Part shown: in pieces, positions 15,637 to 40,781 of the stretch | How positions within the stretch are numbered: position 1 is the first letter of the stretch | Layout of the letters: each line of letters starts with the position of its first letter | DNA from: a bacterium | Lineage (GTDB): Bacteria; Verrucomicrobiota; Kiritimatiellia; CAIKKV01; CAITUY01 | Direction of reading: 5' to 3' | Length of the DNA: 63,176 nucleotides | NCBI GenBank assembly: GCA_037143175.1 | Contig: JBAWZF010000014.1 | Location: forward strand, 1-63,176 | The notes under the pieces: generated by a model | The model's input: only the letters and a program-made list of their open reading frames with translations | The model's database searches: none | What the model was told of the DNA's origin: nothing | Position numbers and translations under genes: made by a program

Positions 15637-15990
15637 GTGAAAATTTCATTAAATCTAAACCAGAATGATTACAGCACCCCGGAGGCAACTCGTGAAAAAG
15701 CGATTGAGCGAGATGTGGAGGGGTGCAAAAAAAACGACTGGGAAGCCAAATCCCGTTTGATCCAGACTTTTATGCCGCTCCTCACATCTCTCGCTAAAAA
15801 ACGCACACAGGAAACGGCCATCCTTAATCGATTCATTGAAGCAGGCAAAGAGGGGTTGACGGATGCCGCCAAGCATTTTCATTCATCCTCAAATACTAAA
15901 TTCCAACTCTTCGCCCTGAATTATATCGAGCAGGCCATGAATCGGGTCAACCGCCCAGGCTTTTTTTCCAGAATTTTCGGACGAACCTGA
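15637..15990 (+). CDS. sigma-70 region-2-like small protein
   Basis: The 117-residue product resembles region 2 of sigma-70 factors without the other regions. LIQTFMPLLTSLAKKRTQET looks like regions 1.2/2.1, FIEAGKEGLTDAAKHF like 2.2, and KFQLFALNYIEQAMNRVNRP like 2.3/2.4. No -35-binding region 4 follows and the gene stops shortly after a basic tail. It starts with GTG and has a strong aaggag ribosome binding site eight bases upstream. It could bind core polymerase or compete with a sigma factor; this is inferred from sequence pattern only. trmB follows after eight bases. Confidence 0.6.
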   Translation: MKISLNLNQNDYSTPEATREKAIERDVEGCKKNDWEAKSRLIQTFMPLLTSLAKKRTQETAILNRFIEAGKEGLTDAAKHFHSSSNTKFQLFALNYIEQAMNRVNRPGFFSRIFGRT

Positions 15991-33666: not shown

Positions 33667-34308
33667 TCAGCCGCCGAAGGCGGCGTGAAGCTTCTCCATC
33701 GTTACGCCCGTTGCGGGCTGAATGCGCTCGAGATAGCGCTGAACGTATTTGCCGATGATGTCGGTCTCAAGATTGACGGTGTGCCCTCGTTTCAAGGCTT
33801 GGAGCGAGGTATTTGCCAAGGTATGGGGAATAAGGTGTACCGTAAAAGACTTCGGTCGCAACTCAGCAATCGTCAGACTGATGCCATCAATCGCAATGGA
33901 ACCTTTCGGAACAATCCCCCGCAGCAGAGTCTCATCACAGGCAACCTCAAGGACCCAGTCGGATCCCTTCTGGTCAAAGGCCATGACCGTCCCCAACCCA
34001 TCCACATGACCACTTACGATATGTCCCCCCAACCGTTCATCGGCACGCAGAGCGCGCTCGAGGTTCAAAGGGGCACCAGTGTCTTTTTTTCCAAGATTGG
34101 ATTTATTCACGGTTTCATGAAGGACATCGCAGGAGAATTCGCCAGCCCGGATTGCCGTCACTGTAAGGCACACTCCCTGCACCGCCACGCTTTCGCCTTG
34201 AATCAAAGGCGAATCCCAAGCGTCATGCGTAATGGCGAAAACCATGCCCTCACCACGCGGCTTTTTGCCCGCCAACTTCCCGACCTTTTGAATCAAACCG
34301 GTAAACAT
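33667..34308 (-). CDS. ribE: riboflavin synthase alpha chain
   Basis: RibE converts two molecules of 6,7-dimethyl-8-ribityllumazine into riboflavin. The 213-residue protein begins with the diagnostic MFTGLIQKVG and has the two lumazine-binding barrel repeats (GVCLTVTAIRAGEFSCDVLH and GISLTIAELRPKSFTVHLIP), with GGHIVSGHVDGLG between them. It is the last gene of the rib operon and overlaps ribD by 16 bases. Confidence 0.95.
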   Translation of the reverse strand: MFTGLIQKVGKLAGKKPRGEGMVFAITHDAWDSPLIQGESVAVQGVCLTVTAIRAGEFSCDVLHETVNKSNLGKKDTGAPLNLERALRADERLGGHIVSGHVDGLGTVMAFDQKGSDWVLEVACDETLLRGIVPKGSIAIDGISLTIAELRPKSFTVHLIPHTLANTSLQALKRGHTVNLETDIIGKYVQRYLERIQPATGVTMEKLHAAFGG

Positions 34309-35411
34309 GATTGTACTCCTGACCTTAGGCGGATCATGACATCATCACCAACCACGCCCGACTCCACCACGTTCATACGCGGGGCCTCTGCCAATGCCCA
34401 ATTCACCGCGCCAACTGATGCCAAGCCCTTCGCCCCGAGCATCACCGGCGCCACAAATAACACCAGTTCATCCACCACCCCCGCCTTTAACAGCGAGCCC
34501 ACCAACACCCCGCCGCCTTCACACACAACATGCATCAGCCCCTTGGCATGCAGCCCTTTCATCAAGGCTACCAACGACACCCCCACCCCAGAAGCCGGCA
34601 GCACCATCACCTCTGCCCCACACTTAGTATAGGCAGCACGCTGACGCTCAGAACACCGCTTGGTGGTCGCCAGAATGGTTCTGGCCGCAAACTCATCGGT
34701 AAACACACGGGCGAGAGATGAAACCTTGCCCCGGGCATCCACGATAACCCGATAGGGTTTCCGCCCCTTTGACGGACGTGGCATTAATGATGGGTTATCC
34801 GCCATCACGGTGCCAGCACCTACCATAATCGCATCCGCCCGTCGCCGAAGCCCCTGCACCTGCACGCGGGCTTCAGGTCCGGATATCCATTGGGAACACC
34901 CCGTGGAATCGGCAATACGGCCATCCAGCGAAGTGGCCAGTTTGACCGTTATATAAGGCCTGGTTCGCAACATGGTCGACGCGAAGGGTCGCAGTATTTC
35001 CGATCCCTCTTCCGCGCCTACACCACGTTCAACGGTAATGCCTTTCTTGCGTAACAGCGTAAATCCTTTTCCAGAGTGCTTAGAATTCGGATCGGACACG
35101 GCACAGACCACGCGCTTGATTCCCGCCGCAAGGATAGCGTCAGTACAGGGAGGCGTACGCCCCCAGGAGGAACAGGGCTCTAAAGTCACATAAAGCGTGG
35201 CACCCGCAGCGCGAGAACCAGCCTGCCGCAGGGCATAGACTTCAGCATGGGGGCCGCCAGCTTTACGATGATAACCACGCCCGATGACCTTGTTGTTCTT
35301 GACCACCACTGCACCCACAGGGGGATTGGGCCGCGTCAGCCCTTCACCCAGACGGGCAAGCCGCAGCGCTTCTGTCATCCATGTTGCGTCCGCTTTCTTC
35401 TGAAATCTCAT
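34293..35411 (-). CDS. ribD: bifunctional riboflavin deaminase/reductase
   Basis: RibD deaminates and then reduces the pyrimidine from GTP cyclohydrolase II. The deaminase half has PHAEVYALRQAG (zinc His and catalytic Glu) and EPCSSWGRTPPCTDAILAAG (zinc Cys). The reductase half starts near residue 150 (TVKLATSLDGRIADSTGCSQ, WISGPEARVQVQGLRRRADA). The length of 372 residues is normal. The start is the first ATG of the frame; an in-frame ATG 11 codons later (MTEALRLARLGEG) matches the family start equally well. It lies downstream of ftsY. Confidence 0.94.
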   Translation of the reverse strand: MRFQKKADATWMTEALRLARLGEGLTRPNPPVGAVVVKNNKVIGRGYHRKAGGPHAEVYALRQAGSRAAGATLYVTLEPCSSWGRTPPCTDAILAAGIKRVVCAVSDPNSKHSGKGFTLLRKKGITVERGVGAEEGSEILRPFASTMLRTRPYITVKLATSLDGRIADSTGCSQWISGPEARVQVQGLRRRADAIMVGAGTVMADNPSLMPRPSKGRKPYRVIVDARGKVSSLARVFTDEFAARTILATTKRCSERQRAAYTKCGAEVMVLPASGVGVSLVALMKGLHAKGLMHVVCEGGGVLVGSLLKAGVVDELVLFVAPVMLGAKGLASVGAVNWALAEAPRMNVVESGVVGDDVMIRLRSGVQSCLPV

Positions 35412-35427
35412 ATTTCAAATCTAAAAT

Positions 35428-36315
35428 CTATACGCCCAGGAAACTCTTCACGAACTCCTTGGAATCAAACGGAGCCAGATCATCTTCGCCTTCGCCGAGT
35501 CCAACAAAATGGACCGGCAACCCAAGTTCTTTACGAAGGGTGAAAACAAATCCAGCTTTTGAAGACCCATCCAGCTTGGCAACCACGACCCCCGAAAGAT
35601 CCACGCATTCCTTGAACATTCTAGCTTGGATAACCGCATTGTTCCCCAGAGTGGCATCCAGGACAATCCAGTTTTCATGAGGCGCACCGGGGAGCGCTTT
35701 GCCGATGGAGCGCTGAACCTTCTGAAGTTCATCCATCAGCGGCTGTTTGGTATGCATCCGGCCCGCAGTATCAATCAACACTACATCTGCCTTCCTGGCC
35801 ACTGCAGCTTTAACGGAGTCAAACGCCACCGCCGCCGAATCAGCCCCATGTGCCCCCACCACTACATCCAGCTTGAGCCGATCCGCCCAGAGTTTGAGCT
35901 GATGGGACCCCGCCGCACGGAAAGTATCCGCAGCCGCCAGTAGCGGCGACAGGCCCTGACGCTTGACCAGATGACCAAGTTTAGCGGTGGTGGTTGTTTT
36001 TCCCGAACCATTCACACCGGTAATCAAAATAACTTTGGGAGAACCCGGAAGGCTCCATTGATAAGGCGCTTGTTCAGGCAGAGCAGCCAACAGCATGGCC
36101 TCGATCAAATGAGTCATATCCCCGCTGCCCGCCTTACGCTTCAACCGGGCAATCCACTCTTCAACCAGGCGGGGCGCAATATCCGCCTGAATCAATAATT
36201 TTTCCCACTCCTCCAAAGCAACGGGATCGGCCTTCGCCAGACCTGGAATCAAACGAGCCAGCCCCCCCGCAATCTTGTCACGGGTACGTGCGAGTGCCGT
36301 CAACCACGACTTCAT
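35428..36315 (-). CDS. ftsY: signal recognition particle receptor FtsY
   Basis: FtsY is the SRP receptor GTPase that brings ribosome-nascent chain complexes to SecYEG. The 295-residue protein is an NG domain without the acidic A domain. It shows ITGVNGSGKTTTTAKLGHLV (G1), DTFRAAGSHQLKLWADRL, VLIDTAGRMHTKQPLMDELQ (G3), VAKLDGSSKAGFVFTLRKEL (G4 region) and FVGLGEGEDDLAPFDSKEFV. G1 has Ser where Val is more usual. It overlaps nusB by ATGA and lies inside the riboflavin operon, an uncommon setting. Confidence 0.94.
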   Translation of the reverse strand: MKSWLTALARTRDKIAGGLARLIPGLAKADPVALEEWEKLLIQADIAPRLVEEWIARLKRKAGSGDMTHLIEAMLLAALPEQAPYQWSLPGSPKVILITGVNGSGKTTTTAKLGHLVKRQGLSPLLAAADTFRAAGSHQLKLWADRLKLDVVVGAHGADSAAVAFDSVKAAVARKADVVLIDTAGRMHTKQPLMDELQKVQRSIGKALPGAPHENWIVLDATLGNNAVIQARMFKECVDLSGVVVAKLDGSSKAGFVFTLRKELGLPVHFVGLGEGEDDLAPFDSKEFVKSFLGV

Positions 36316-36764
36316 GACTCTGTTCCTTCAGCCTCTCCTGCAGTCTTGCCGACCCCGGATGCCTCAATATCACGATGAACCTTATCCAGAACGCCATTCA
36401 CAAAACGCCCGGAGCCAACATCACCCATATTTTTAGCAATGGCCACAGCCTCATTAATAGAGACCGCATGCGGGATATCCTTGCGGAACATCATTTCATA
36501 GACAGCCAGTCGTATCACATTGCGATCGACAGTCGCCATGCGGGGCAACTCCCAATTCTGGGCACACTTGGCAATCGTCGCATCGACAGCAAACCGATTT
36601 TCCATCACACCACGCACCAACTCTTCGACAAACAGCTGGGTCTTGGTCGTCACTTTACGTTCCAGCCAATAGGAAGCCAGGGTGGTATTCAATTCACCCG
36701 GATTGAAATCCAACTGAAACAGGATCTGCACCGCTGATTCGCGGGCATCTCTTCGAGACCCCAT
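36312..36764 (-). CDS. nusB: transcription antitermination factor NusB
   Basis: NusB joins NusE to bind boxA RNA in rRNA antitermination. The product of 150 residues starts MGSRRDARESAVQILFQLDF and contains FVEELVRGVMENRFAVDATI, MATVDRNVIRLAVYEMMF and SINEAVAIAKNMGDVGSGRF, with a C-terminal GVLDKVHRDIE. The start is one base after the ribH stop and gives the conserved family N-terminus; the open frame continues far upstream into ribH and is not used. The pairing ribH-nusB is common in bacteria. Confidence 0.94.
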   Translation of the reverse strand: MGSRRDARESAVQILFQLDFNPGELNTTLASYWLERKVTTKTQLFVEELVRGVMENRFAVDATIAKCAQNWELPRMATVDRNVIRLAVYEMMFRKDIPHAVSINEAVAIAKNMGDVGSGRFVNGVLDKVHRDIEASGVGKTAGEAEGTES

Positions 36765-36765
36765 A

Positions 36766-37245
36766 TTAAACTCCCATCTGCTTACACAAGTTCGCCATCT
36801 CAATGGCGGCCAACGCCCCGCTCCACCCCTTGTTGCCAGCCTTGGTACCACACCGTTCGATGGCCTGTTCAAGGTTATCAGCACAAACGACGGCATTGAT
36901 GACCGGTACCTGTTTATCCAGCGCAATGCCTGACAAAGCCCGCGACACCTGGGAATTAATGAGATCCGCATGCGGAGTCGCCCCTTGAATCACCACGCCA
37001 AGCGCCACAATGGCATTCGTTCCACCTTTGGTCGCCAGTTGCTGCACCACAAAAGGGAGTTCGTTGGCACCCGGCACCCAAGCGACGGTGATATCTTTTT
37101 CATTTACGCCATGCCGTACAAAACAATCGATGGCGCCCCCCACCAATTCTTTGGTAAATAAATCGTTAAACCGGCTGACCACAATACTGAATTTCAGACC
37201 CTGTCCAATCAGGTTGCCAGATACTTCTTTCACAGTTGTACTCAT
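36766..37245 (-). CDS. ribH: 6,7-dimethyl-8-ribityllumazine synthase
   Basis: RibH condenses the pyrimidine product with dihydroxybutanone phosphate and often assembles as an icosahedral shell. The 159-residue protein has KFSIVVSRFNDLFTKELVGG, WVPGANELPFVVQQLATKGG, ALGVVIQGATPHADLINSQV (with catalytic His) and VINAVVCADNLEQAIERCGT. The start MSTTVKEV has a ggaggg ribosome binding site; a frame extension of six codons is possible. It lies 63 bases after ribBA. Confidence 0.95.
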   Translation of the reverse strand: MSTTVKEVSGNLIGQGLKFSIVVSRFNDLFTKELVGGAIDCFVRHGVNEKDITVAWVPGANELPFVVQQLATKGGTNAIVALGVVIQGATPHADLINSQVSRALSGIALDKQVPVINAVVCADNLEQAIERCGTKAGNKGWSGALAAIEMANLCKQMGV

Positions 37246-37308
37246 TATCTTCTCCCTCCCCATTCACTCGTTTTCACTCTTAATGTTTAACATTTTACAT
37301 TTAACTTC

Positions 37309-38520
37309 TTACAGCCAATGCCCCATCTTCTTCTTCTTTGTCGCCAGATACCGCTGACTATGTATGTTTGAAGGCAGAATAAGCGGAACCCGCTCCGTAA
37401 TGGTCAAACCATATGCTTTAAGCCCAACCACTTTACAGGGGTTGTTGGTTATCAACCGGATCTTGGTCAATCCCAGATCTGCCAGTATTTGGGCGCCAAC
37501 GCCATAGTCCCTCAAATCGGCCTTGAACCCAAGCTTTTCATTGGCTTCGACGGTATCGAACCCCTTCTCTTGCAGTTCATAGGCGTGCAGCTTATTTGCC
37601 AGCCCAATCCCCCGCCCCTCCTGGCGCATATAGAGAACAACGCCGACTTTTTCATGAGCCACCATGTCCATAGCCTTGGAAAGTTGATCACCGCAATCGC
37701 ACCGCATCGAACCAAATACATCCCCAGTCAAACATTCGCTGTGCACTCGCACAAGGGGGGCCTTCGCCTTCCGGGGATCGCCCATAACCAAAGCCAGGTG
37801 ATGCTCATTGCCGATCAACGAGCGATAGAGTTTCAGTTTGAAAATCCCATGCCGAGTGGGCATATCCACCGTTCGCTCAAGCTCAATCAGACGCTCCTCG
37901 CGACGACGATACTCAATCAGACTCGCCACCGTGGCAATTTTCAGTCCATGTTTTTTTGCAAATTTAGTCAATTCAGGCAAGCGTGCCATCTCGCCGTTAT
38001 CCTTCATGATCTCACAGATCACGCCGGCAGGCGCCAAGCCTGCTAACCGGGCAAGATCCACGGCCGTTTCGGTATGGCCTGCACGACATAACACACCGCC
38101 TTCTTTGGCTTGAAGCGGGAACACATGCCCCGGACTGATCAAATCGCGTCGCTGCGAGCCTGGCGCGATCAAGGTTTTGATGGTCTTAGCCCGATCATGC
38201 GCACTGATTCCAGTCGTAACCCCTTCATGGGCATCTACCGATTCCATAAATGCCGTACCAAAATGATCTCCTCCGCCACGGTTCACCATACTGCGGATGT
38301 TCAGTTTTTCGAGCCGCTCCTTAGTCATGGCAACGCAAATCAGGCCGCGCCCGTAGCGTGCCATGAAATTAATGGCGCTGTCCGTGACTTTGTCAGCGGC
38401 CATGATGAGATCTCCCTCGTTCTCGCGGTTCTCATCATCTGTGACCACCACCATTTTCCCACGGCGGATATCAGCAATCACTGCCTCGATGGGGTCAAAT
38501 ATCTTGTTTTCTTTACTCAT
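37309..38520 (-). CDS. ribBA: bifunctional DHBP synthase / GTP cyclohydrolase II
   Basis: RibBA begins both branches of riboflavin synthesis. The N-terminal DHBP synthase has VVTDDENRENEGDLIMAADK, the metal site HTETAVDLARLAGLAPAGVI and CEIMKDNGEMARLPELTKFA. The C-terminal cyclohydrolase II (from about residue 206) has the zinc cysteines in SECLTGDVFGSMRCDCGDQL and MRQEGRGIGLANKLHAYELQ. The length of 403 residues is normal. It is the first gene after the FMN riboswitch and its terminator, so flavin level should control it and the genes downstream. Confidence 0.97.
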   Translation of the reverse strand: MSKENKIFDPIEAVIADIRRGKMVVVTDDENRENEGDLIMAADKVTDSAINFMARYGRGLICVAMTKERLEKLNIRSMVNRGGGDHFGTAFMESVDAHEGVTTGISAHDRAKTIKTLIAPGSQRRDLISPGHVFPLQAKEGGVLCRAGHTETAVDLARLAGLAPAGVICEIMKDNGEMARLPELTKFAKKHGLKIATVASLIEYRRREERLIELERTVDMPTRHGIFKLKLYRSLIGNEHHLALVMGDPRKAKAPLVRVHSECLTGDVFGSMRCDCGDQLSKAMDMVAHEKVGVVLYMRQEGRGIGLANKLHAYELQEKGFDTVEANEKLGFKADLRDYGVGAQILADLGLTKIRLITNNPCKVVGLKAYGLTITERVPLILPSNIHSQRYLATKKKKMGHWL

Positions 38521-38607: not shown

Positions 38608-38638
38608 ACAATAAAACGGCACAATACATGCCGGTTCT

Positions 38639-38791
38639 GTCTTCTCCCATCCAGACTGAGAGGCGTCATTACGCCACCATCACTGTCGGCCACGGCATTT
38701 CACCGTGTCTGTCCTGCTTTCACAAGACTCGCGGGCTTTAACCGCCGGTTGGGAATCTTCACCTTGCGATGACACACCCTGTCCCGAAGAC
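38639..38791 (-). promoter_or_regulatory. FMN riboswitch aptamer
   Basis: The reverse strand shows the FMN (RFN) element. P1 is gtcttc (38791-38786) with gaagac (38644-38639). The core has ATTCCCAACCGGCGGT and AAAGCCCGCGAG, then CACGGTGAAATGCCGTGG, CCGACAG, and a 3' end CAGTCTGGATGGGAG. These match the consensus for P2-P6. The P2 loop carries about 15 extra bases (GGGTG-tgtcatcgcaa-GGTGAAGATTCCC) compared with the usual GGGUGAAAUUCCC. FMN binding should favour the terminator downstream and shut off the rib operon. Confidence 0.93.
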
Positions 38792-38879
38792 AACCACATT
38801 ACTCAAATCACAAGCAACATTTCTCCGTTGCGGGGAGTAACTTAGTACAAGATCAGGGCGATTTCAATCGCTTTCTCCC

Positions 38880-39470
38880 TTACTTCGCGTGCTTCGCCAG
38901 GTAACTCGCCACACCTGCGGCAGTAGGCTTCATCGCCTCTTCGCCATCTTTCCAATTAGCCGGACACACATCGCCATGCTCTTCATGGAATTTCAGGGCG
39001 TCCAGGGTTCGAATGGCCTCCTCGACATTTCGACCGATCGGAAGGTCGTTCACCAATTGATGACGCACGATCCCCTTCTGGTCAATGAGGAACAACCCGC
39101 GCAGGGCCACTGCATCATTCAGCAACACATCATAGTCACGGGCAATTTTCTTATCCAGATCCGCGACTAACGGGAAGGCAATTTCGCCAATCCCTCCCTT
39201 TTCAACAGGAGTCTGGCGCCAGGCAAAGTGGGAGAACTGGGAATCCACAGAAACTCCCAATACAACCGCACCCTTCTTTTCAAATGTCTTTACCGCCTTG
39301 TTAAACGCCAATATCTCCGAAGGACATACAAACGTGAAGTCCAGGGGATAGAAAAATAACACCACGTACTTCCCTCGGTAGGAAGACAAGGTAAGTTCTT
39401 TAATCTGGTTATCGGGCATCACCGCTTGTGCGGTAAAATCAGGGGCTGCTTTTGTAACTAATACGGACAT
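38880..39470 (-). CDS. 2-Cys peroxiredoxin (AhpC/Prx1 type)
   Basis: This enzyme reduces hydrogen peroxide and organic peroxides. The 196-residue protein has the peroxidatic cysteine in YPLDFTFVCPSEILAFNKAV and the resolving cysteine in HGDVCPANWKDGEEAM, so it is a typical dimeric 2-Cys form. It also has FPLVADLDKKIARDYDVL. The start MSVLVTKAAPDF has an aaaggag ribosome binding site; the frame continues 21 codons upstream. Directly upstream are an operator palindrome and the frameshifted Rrf2 gene, which suggests control by an Fe-S or redox-sensing Rrf2 protein. No ahpF or thioredoxin gene is in the window. Confidence 0.93.
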   Translation of the reverse strand: MSVLVTKAAPDFTAQAVMPDNQIKELTLSSYRGKYVVLFFYPLDFTFVCPSEILAFNKAVKTFEKKGAVVLGVSVDSQFSHFAWRQTPVEKGGIGEIAFPLVADLDKKIARDYDVLLNDAVALRGLFLIDQKGIVRHQLVNDLPIGRNVEEAIRTLDALKFHEEHGDVCPANWKDGEEAMKPTAAGVASYLAKHAK

Positions 39471-39549
39471 ATTATTTCTCCTTTTATTCTCTGTTTTTAT
39501 CTCCCACAAACCTTGAACTTTAAACTTCTTCATTAATACTGCCGGAATA

Positions 39550-39570
39550 ATGACACTACGACGGTATCAT
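39550..39570. promoter_or_regulatory. candidate Rrf2 operator upstream of peroxiredoxin
   Basis: The 21-base site reads ATGACAC-tacgacg-GTATCAT on the plus strand, an inverted repeat in which six of seven arm positions match. A nearly identical site lies before the Rrf2 gene at 40009-40029. Placement between the Rrf2 gene and the peroxiredoxin start supports a role as its operator. Confidence 0.65.
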
Positions 39571-39592
39571 TATCAAGACTTATTTTTGATTT

Positions 39593-39995
39593 CTAAACAA
39601 GATCAGATATATGAATCGCCTTTAACCTCTTGTCCACATCCGCCTGAATGCCAGCAAATTCCCGCTGCATCAAACATAGGGACGATCGGTTGCAGGATTT
39701 AGGATCTGATGTACAAAGGCTCAGCTCCACACCTCTTGGTCCCATCACCCCCATGATGTCGTGCAAGGACATGGATTGAGGCGTCTTAGCGAGGGCGACC
39801 CCGCCCCCCTTCCCTCTCCGGCTCTCAATCAATCCCCCCCACAACAAGTCGCTTGACCAATTTTCTCAAAAAACGGTAGGGAATATCCATCTCCGCCGCT
39901 ATCTCCGCCGAGGAAGCTGATAAAATTCCTTTTTTGTGCCGCTCGGCTAGCGCCAAAACAAGCCGCATCGAATAATCTGTTTCTCGCGTAATCAT
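39593..39995 (-). pseudogene. Rrf2-family transcriptional regulator, frameshifted at a G7 tract
   Basis: The N-terminal part from the ATG at 39995 (aaggag ribosome binding site) reads MITRETDYSMRLVLALAERH, KKGILSASSAEIAAEMDIPY and RFLRKLVKRLVV, a complete winged helix. At a run of seven G (39834-39840 on the minus strand) the frame breaks and a stop follows. Removing one G continues the family sequence: GGLIESRRGKGGGVALAKTP, then MSLHDIMGVMGPRGVELSLC and the cysteine set CTSDPKSCNRSSLC near residue 95. These three cysteines match Fe-S ligands of IscR/NsrR-type members. The intact form would be 133 residues. The break may be a real mutation, a phase switch or a sequencing error. Confidence 0.88.
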
Positions 39996-40008
39996 AACGC
40001 TCCTTATA

Positions 40009-40029
40009 TTGACACCGCGACAGTATCAT
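40009..40029. promoter_or_regulatory. candidate Rrf2 operator upstream of its own gene
   Basis: The site reads TTGACAC-cgcgaca-GTATCAT on the plus strand, 14 bases before the Rrf2 start. It matches the site at 39550-39570 at 17 of 21 positions, with the arms almost unchanged. Position near the promoter suggests autoregulation. Confidence 0.65.
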
Positions 40030-40121
40030 TAAAGCAGCCATCAATTCAAGCAGGAAAAGACAAAGTCAAAACTCCAGGATTCTAAACCATTCTGAATCCG
40101 GAATTTGGAACTCTCGTCTAT

Positions 40122-40718
40122 TTACGCTTTCTCGATCAGGGCGGAAATATCGGCGAATACATGCGGAGCATGCTCATTGAGCGCCTTCAACATCGCCAGG
40201 CAGACATCACGGATTTCCCATTGTGCGCGACGATGGCACCGCACATTAAACACATGACGCCATTCGCGAAAATTAGCGGTAACCACCAGCTCGGTAGTGC
40301 AGGCATTCGGGAGCACAAAGCGGGCATCCTCACTTTTGAGGCCCTTCTCTTTCCATTTCGCATACATGTCCCGGAGGACCGCCATATCCCGATCAAATTC
40401 AGGTTTATCGTCCCCGCTCACAGCAGGAGGCACAACCCACCCGAAAGTCGATTCTGACACATATCTCTGACTTTTCTGCGAGACCGACATTAACCGGTGC
40501 CGTACCAGTTGGTGGGTCATAGCGCGGGAGACCTCGCTTATCCGGAATGTGGCACAGGCATGTTCAAAAGGAGATTCATGCCCCATGGCAATTAACTTGG
40601 GAAGCAGTTCCCCTATTTTTTCAGGGACCATTTTATCCCCGCTCTGATAGCAGGTTCGAGCGGCAATTTCGATGATGCGCTCCGCGTCCGGTGTAATAGC
40701 AAGCAGTTCAACTTTCAT
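40122..40718 (-). CDS. thyX: FAD-dependent thymidylate synthase
   Basis: ThyX makes dTMP from dUMP using methylenetetrahydrofolate and reduced FAD. The product of 198 residues has the signature RHRLMSVSQKSQRYVSESTF (RHRxxSxxxxSxR), HESPFEHACATFRI and the C-terminal NFREWRHVFNVRCHRRAQWE. The start is placed at MKVELLAITPDAE, the family N-terminus; the open frame extends 11 codons. It lies alone, upstream of the Rrf2 locus on the same strand. It uses flavin, so it depends on the rib operon nearby. Confidence 0.95.
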   Translation of the reverse strand: MKVELLAITPDAERIIEIAARTCYQSGDKMVPEKIGELLPKLIAMGHESPFEHACATFRISEVSRAMTHQLVRHRLMSVSQKSQRYVSESTFGWVVPPAVSGDDKPEFDRDMAVLRDMYAKWKEKGLKSEDARFVLPNACTTELVVTANFREWRHVFNVRCHRRAQWEIRDVCLAMLKALNEHAPHVFADISALIEKA

Positions 40719-40781
40719 AGGTGCCACTATAATTCTTAATGGCCATCCCATTCAAGCGCATCTTATTCCTCCACACAACTC

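Follow-up and report, generated by a model that had tools for sequence, protein, structure and literature searches.

A predicted Fe-S-type Rrf2 regulator gene split at a seven-G tract, and the conserved palindrome that accompanies it

The split rrf2 gene and its predicted product

The stretch of DNA analysed here (the window, 63,176 nucleotides) is the entire contig C14 of a genome, G000, that is 3.3 Mb long in 107 contigs, 95% complete and evidently a metagenome bin. Between thyX and a gene for a 2-Cys peroxiredoxin, its minus strand bears an rrf2 gene, split at a run of seven G (Table 1). Read from its ATG at 39995, the gene yields only 56 residues (MITRETDY...KRLVVGGID, that is MITRETDYSMRL...RKLVKRLVVGGID) before a TGA at 39827-39825, and the remainder of the gene lies in the next frame, which is open from upstream of the tract, reads LIESRRGKGGGVALAK...ELSLCTSDPKSCNRSSLCLM...ISDLV after the G run and ends at a TAG at 39595-39593. 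Alignment with eight homologues places a single extra base precisely in the G run, the gene being otherwise aligned. Taken separately, the C-terminal half matched the Pfam Rrf2 profile with 53.9 bits and the N-terminal half with 27.6 bits, the latter below the curated cut-off; when the two reading frames of the window were joined as letters for profile searches, the resulting 133-residue product reached 94.2 bits against PF02082, whose curated cut-off is 30, and covered positions 1-130 of the 132 in the profile, as expected of a member of the family.

Table 1. Features of the rrf2 locus, in window coordinates
Feature	Position	Strand	Basis or conservation
2-Cys peroxiredoxin gene (AhpC/TSA), adjacent presumed target	38880..39470	-	Next to rrf2 in G002-G005, G008 and one Armatimonadota genome
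Candidate operator 2, AATGATACCGTCGTAGTGTCATT, in the interval from rrf2 to the peroxiredoxin gene	39549..39571	-	Conserved at the same place in G002-G005
3' part of rrf2 (shifted frame, ending at TAG), encoding the wing, the C-X6-C-X5-C three-cysteine loop and the dimerisation helix	39593..39832	-	Open reading frame, Pfam, alignment, structure model
5' part of rrf2, from the ATG to the early TGA; its 56 residues hold just the N-terminal helix and the helix-turn-helix	39825..39995	-	Translation; Pfam Rrf2 positions 1-51
Seven-G tract (C7 on the plus strand), site of the frame shift	39834..39840	-	Sequence, alignment, homopolymer survey
Ribosome binding site of rrf2, AAGGAG	40000..40005	-	Sequence
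Candidate operator 1, AATGATACTGTCGCGGTGTCAAT, upstream of rrf2 (presumed autoregulation)	40008..40030	-	Conserved at the same place in G002-G005
Upstream neighbour thyX, for a flavin-dependent thymidylate synthase	40122..40751	-	End of thyX also precedes rrf2 in G002-G005 (synteny by eye)

The consequences of the break were considered on an AlphaFold2 model of an intact protein from a congeneric genome (pLDDT 84), in which helices at residues 4-21, 29-36 and 40-52, strands at 56-59 and 65-68 and a long helix at 108-126 form the winged helix-turn-helix and the long dimerisation helix typical of the Rrf2 family; its best matches in the PDB were RsrR, IscR, CymR and NsrR, with TM scores of about 0.72-0.80. 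The G run falls at residues 52-54, after the recognition helix and ahead of the first wing strand, so that, according to this model, the 56-residue product would be left without wing, three-cysteine loop and dimerisation helix, and should be non-functional. The three cysteines of the loop that precedes the dimerisation helix, a feature of the Fe-S-type members, are invariant in ten aligned proteins of the family, and for this reason the intact protein is predicted to bind an Fe-S cluster. These results agree with the first-pass annotation of the window, which had described an Rrf2 gene interrupted exactly at the seven-G tract, with two preserved halves from which a 133-residue product could be restored, three conserved cysteines, a ribosome binding site and operators.

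The protein shares its fold and the three invariant cluster-loop cysteines with IscR, NsrR, RirA, RsrR and the SUF regulator, and also resembles such Rrf2 Fe-S regulators in its presumed autoregulation and presumed control of Fe-S assembly genes. It differs from the named ones in the spacing of the cysteines, in the pairing with a peroxiredoxin gene, in the frameshifted copy and in its scores, all below cut-off, with the subfamily models (62.8 of 110.65 bits for the SUF regulator, TIGR02944, 41.7 of 207.55 for IscR and 33.3 of 182 for NsrR). The superfamily model TIGR00738 was the only curated model passed, and since the curated subfamily cut-offs were missed, the names IscR, NsrR, RirA and SUF regulator were discarded.

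A conserved palindrome and the presumed regulon

The palindrome AATGATAC-N7-GTATCATT is found upstream of rrf2 and of the peroxiredoxin gene in all five genomes with rrf2 (G000 and four of its congeners, G002-G005). A third copy lies upstream of nifU-nifS, a locus at which Pfam supports NifU and a desulfurase-like neighbour, in three of them: it is identical in G000 (C24:38233-38255; L082, L213) and G004 (C5:28831; L140), and recognisable in G003 (C311:11075). All three sites are thus kept in the genome with the split gene. With up to two mismatches allowed, the palindrome gave 25 + 16 matches on the two strands of G000 versus 3 + 3 for a reversed control, figures to be read with the caveat that the pattern is itself palindromic and that most single matches are without conserved context; only the three sites above are claimed. 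Other operator-like matches in this genome (repeated coding sequence on C21, C8, C14:16837 and C28) had no conserved counterpart and were set aside, as was a pattern with a six-base spacer, which had the wrong spacing, gave mostly noise and was replaced by that with seven bases. A promoter-like site overlaps operator 2; sites of this kind occur here at chance frequency.

The pairing of rrf2 with the peroxiredoxin gene recurs beyond the congeners: G008, a member of the same family, has it, as does an Armatimonadota genome. The simplest reading of this arrangement would be an autoregulated Rrf2 repressor of peroxide defence and Fe-S assembly, with the site upstream of nifU-nifS presumably tying the protein to cluster assembly. 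A literature search on Rrf2 together with peroxiredoxin and nifU returned nothing directly on the present system. Whatever the origin of the extra base in the window, this putative regulon of the genus, in which an Rrf2 repressor would act on itself, the peroxiredoxin and NifU-NifS through a conserved palindrome, may be the more durable outcome of the analysis.

On the same strand, an FMN riboswitch (Rfam RF00050, 85.9 bits) is present at 38635-38795 of the window, upstream of a riboflavin cluster (33667-38520) that includes genes for a ribBA-type DHBP synthase/GTP cyclohydrolase II, lumazine synthase and riboflavin synthase, with nusB-, ftsY- and ribD-like genes, recognised by eye, interspersed.

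Intact orthologues and constraint on the gene

The first-pass annotation had proposed a comparison of the locus in close relatives, and this was done with five congeneric genomes. The orthologue is intact and in one frame in G002-G005, environmental bins of which one is labelled PVC-group bacterium, with 70-80% identity; three of the proteins align along all 133 residues and one along 132. In the fifth genome, which is 85% complete, no rrf2 orthologue was found. More widely, there were Rrf2 matches in 48 of 58 related genomes, and among the matches listed none other than that of the window contained an internal stop. Across the junction the four intact proteins read V-(V/S)-GGLIESRRGKGGG, and the G run of the window derives from these conserved codons for Val-(Val/Ser)-Gly-Gly, two of them glycine codons. 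The corresponding sequences in the congeners are GTTGGGGGG, TCGGGCGGA, TCGGGTGGT and TCGGGCGGG; the tract is interrupted in three (GGGCGGA, GGGTGGT, GGGCGGG) and consists of six G in the fourth. With runs broken or shorter in the relatives, there is therefore no inherited slippery tract at this site.

Prolonged loss of constraint along the branch would be expected to leave an excess of replacements in the C-terminal half, downstream of the break. Compared with the nearest congener, synonymous sites are near saturation (pS 0.49 and 0.79 in the N- and C-terminal halves, with pN 0.11 and 0.15). At sites where three outgroup congeners agree, replacements exclusive to the window and to L004 numbered 1 and 2, respectively, in the N-terminal half, and 4 and 4 in the C-terminal half, which is thus as constrained as in the sister lineage. 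It follows that the lesion is very recent, or is not real, or has not abolished function. That the gene could be an old pseudogene in decay, as its broken frame might suggest, is therefore the most improbable of the readings considered, given that no further lesion was detected and the candidate operators are intact. An NsrR-like second Rrf2 paralogue of the congeners (G003:C289, L211; G004:C31, L210) is also missing from what was found in G000, which might be taken in favour of decay. In G003 this paralogue adjoins apparent nitrite-reductase cytochrome genes. No second copy of the subfamily of the split gene was found in G000. A related gene with 38-40% identity is present in a Lentisphaerae-labelled bin (L037, 3001-3393), directly upstream of what by eye appears to be the gene for a carbon-monoxide dehydrogenase catalytic subunit.

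Homopolymers in the genome and the origin of the extra base

Homopolymers were surveyed over 2.06 Mb of G000, after an earlier round of 0.86 Mb. G runs of at least seven amount to 131, with 113-147 expected, so the run in rrf2 is within chance, and what is unusual is the break of a conserved gene. Reading frames were then compared on both sides of G/C runs of at least seven with strong coding on the same strand at either side: 95 of 97 such runs (lengths 7-11) are in frame. Of five shift flags, those at L167, L168 and L171 were by eye ordinary stop/start gene junctions, and the two retained after inspection correspond to rrf2 and to a gene with a kinase ATPase domain. None of the A/T runs of at least eight was shifted, and the approximately 1,600 runs of five or six yielded at most a few doubtful shifts, several of the flags being junctions or false calls by eye and one (L192, 10054) perhaps real. 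A T7 flag in the window itself, at 15961, marks the boundary to the following gene, which is trmB-like by eye. In 0.4 Mb of the closest congener, G004, 39 runs of at least seven are in frame and the sole flag is a gene junction. A tblastn comparison of frameshifts in random stretches of the two genomes provided only about 20 homologous pairs, too few to be informative, and an ab initio Viterbi search for frameshifts, with 60 flags of which those inspected were gene junctions and antisense frames, was too noisy to be used. Homopolymer error is thus not systematic in G000, and true breaks seem to concentrate in the longer runs, as slippage predicts, be it in the cell or, rarely, in sequencing.

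These data bear directly on the homopolymer error that the first-pass annotation had listed among its explanations, and which becomes unlikely as a systematic effect but may still hold as an accident at a single site. The extra G would then have arisen in the sequencing or consensus calling of a metagenome-type assembly, and the gene would be intact and working in the cell, something we consider unlikely but deserving of serious attention. The survey is compatible with a single wrong call in about 97 long coding G/C runs, and the absence of other damage or relaxed constraint in rrf2, together with its intact candidate operators, would be expected from an error just as from a young mutation. 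On the other side, the frames of the surveyed runs, including the A/T ones and those of the closest congener, indicate that errors are rare at most.

The explanation that we favour, with some reserve, is a recent null allele, produced by slippage, of an ordinary Fe-S-type Rrf2 repressor; a very recent mutation is also, among the three possibilities raised in the first pass, the one that fits best. As assembled, the gene has the traits of a recent pseudogene with a single lesion: one extra base in a homopolymer, no damage elsewhere in the gene or at its control sites, constraint maintained and orthologues intact in sister taxa. Taking the extra base as given, we know of no difference from other single-base slippage pseudogenes and frameshift null alleles. 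The intact regulator, with a three-cysteine loop like that of IscR and NsrR, would repress its own gene, the adjacent 2-Cys peroxiredoxin gene and nifU-nifS through the palindrome; expansion by one base of a chance G run would truncate the protein after the recognition helix, before the wing, leaving an inactive 56-residue fragment, and peroxiredoxin and NifUS would be derepressed. The mutation would be very young. It may have reached fixation not long ago or may still segregate in the sampled population; fixation appears the less likely of the two, since doing without a repressor of Fe-S assembly may carry a cost. If real, the allele would be a naturally occurring knock-out of a regulator in an uncultured lineage, with constitutive peroxiredoxin and NifUS as its predicted outcome.

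Phase variation, in which frequent and reversible changes in tract length would alternately silence and restore the redox regulator in subpopulations, had been put forward in the first pass on the grounds that the break falls exactly in the homopolymer and everything else is intact. Like the contingency loci of Neisseria or the pilus switches of Bifidobacterium breve, rrf2 loses its reading frame precisely at a G tract inside the gene; unlike them, its tract is shorter and is not kept at the same site in relatives, and the gene encodes a conserved regulator rather than a surface structure. Meningococcal homopolymers were found predominantly variable from length 8, with one C5/C6 case also mentioned (PMC5084427), and the B. 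breve tracts are G10-G11 (PMC9187656). Seven G is an ordinary length in G000, no longer than dozens of in-frame tracts, and even coding runs of 8-11 G/C are in frame. A search of the literature on Rrf2 with phase variation and homopolymeric tracts found none. A small opening is left by the mild excess of G/C runs of at least nine in the surveyed 2.06 Mb (29 seen, 12-18 expected). The proposal has gained no positive support and we regard it as improbable; slightly more doubtful still is its extension, in which slippage would toggle a global Fe-S/peroxide repressor and make the population heterogeneous in its readiness for oxidative stress. Should tract lengths coexist, it would be a surprising instance of phase variation acting on a redox regulator. 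In the same survey, A or T runs of at least nine are strongly under-represented (8 seen, 37-49 expected).

The conservation of the downstream half could also be accounted for if a ribosomal frameshift, or slippage of RNA polymerase, at the G run supplied some full-length regulator and hence low-level function; rescue of a product by transcriptional slippage at poly-G has been proposed elsewhere for runs of ten or more G (PMC7835394). We give this very little credit: seven G is short, all orthologues are in one frame, so that no congener needs recoding and the frame break is not a conserved one, and the RNA that follows the run folds no better than shuffled sequences (z = +0.59), with no unusual structure that might stimulate frameshifting.

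In the second gene retained in the survey, a G8 run interrupts a histidine-kinase ATPase domain (L177, 5777; G000:C15 at about 25777; also in L212); by eye the gene looks rearranged, is apparently fused to a KdpB-like fragment, and resembles part of a kdp locus already damaged and in decay.
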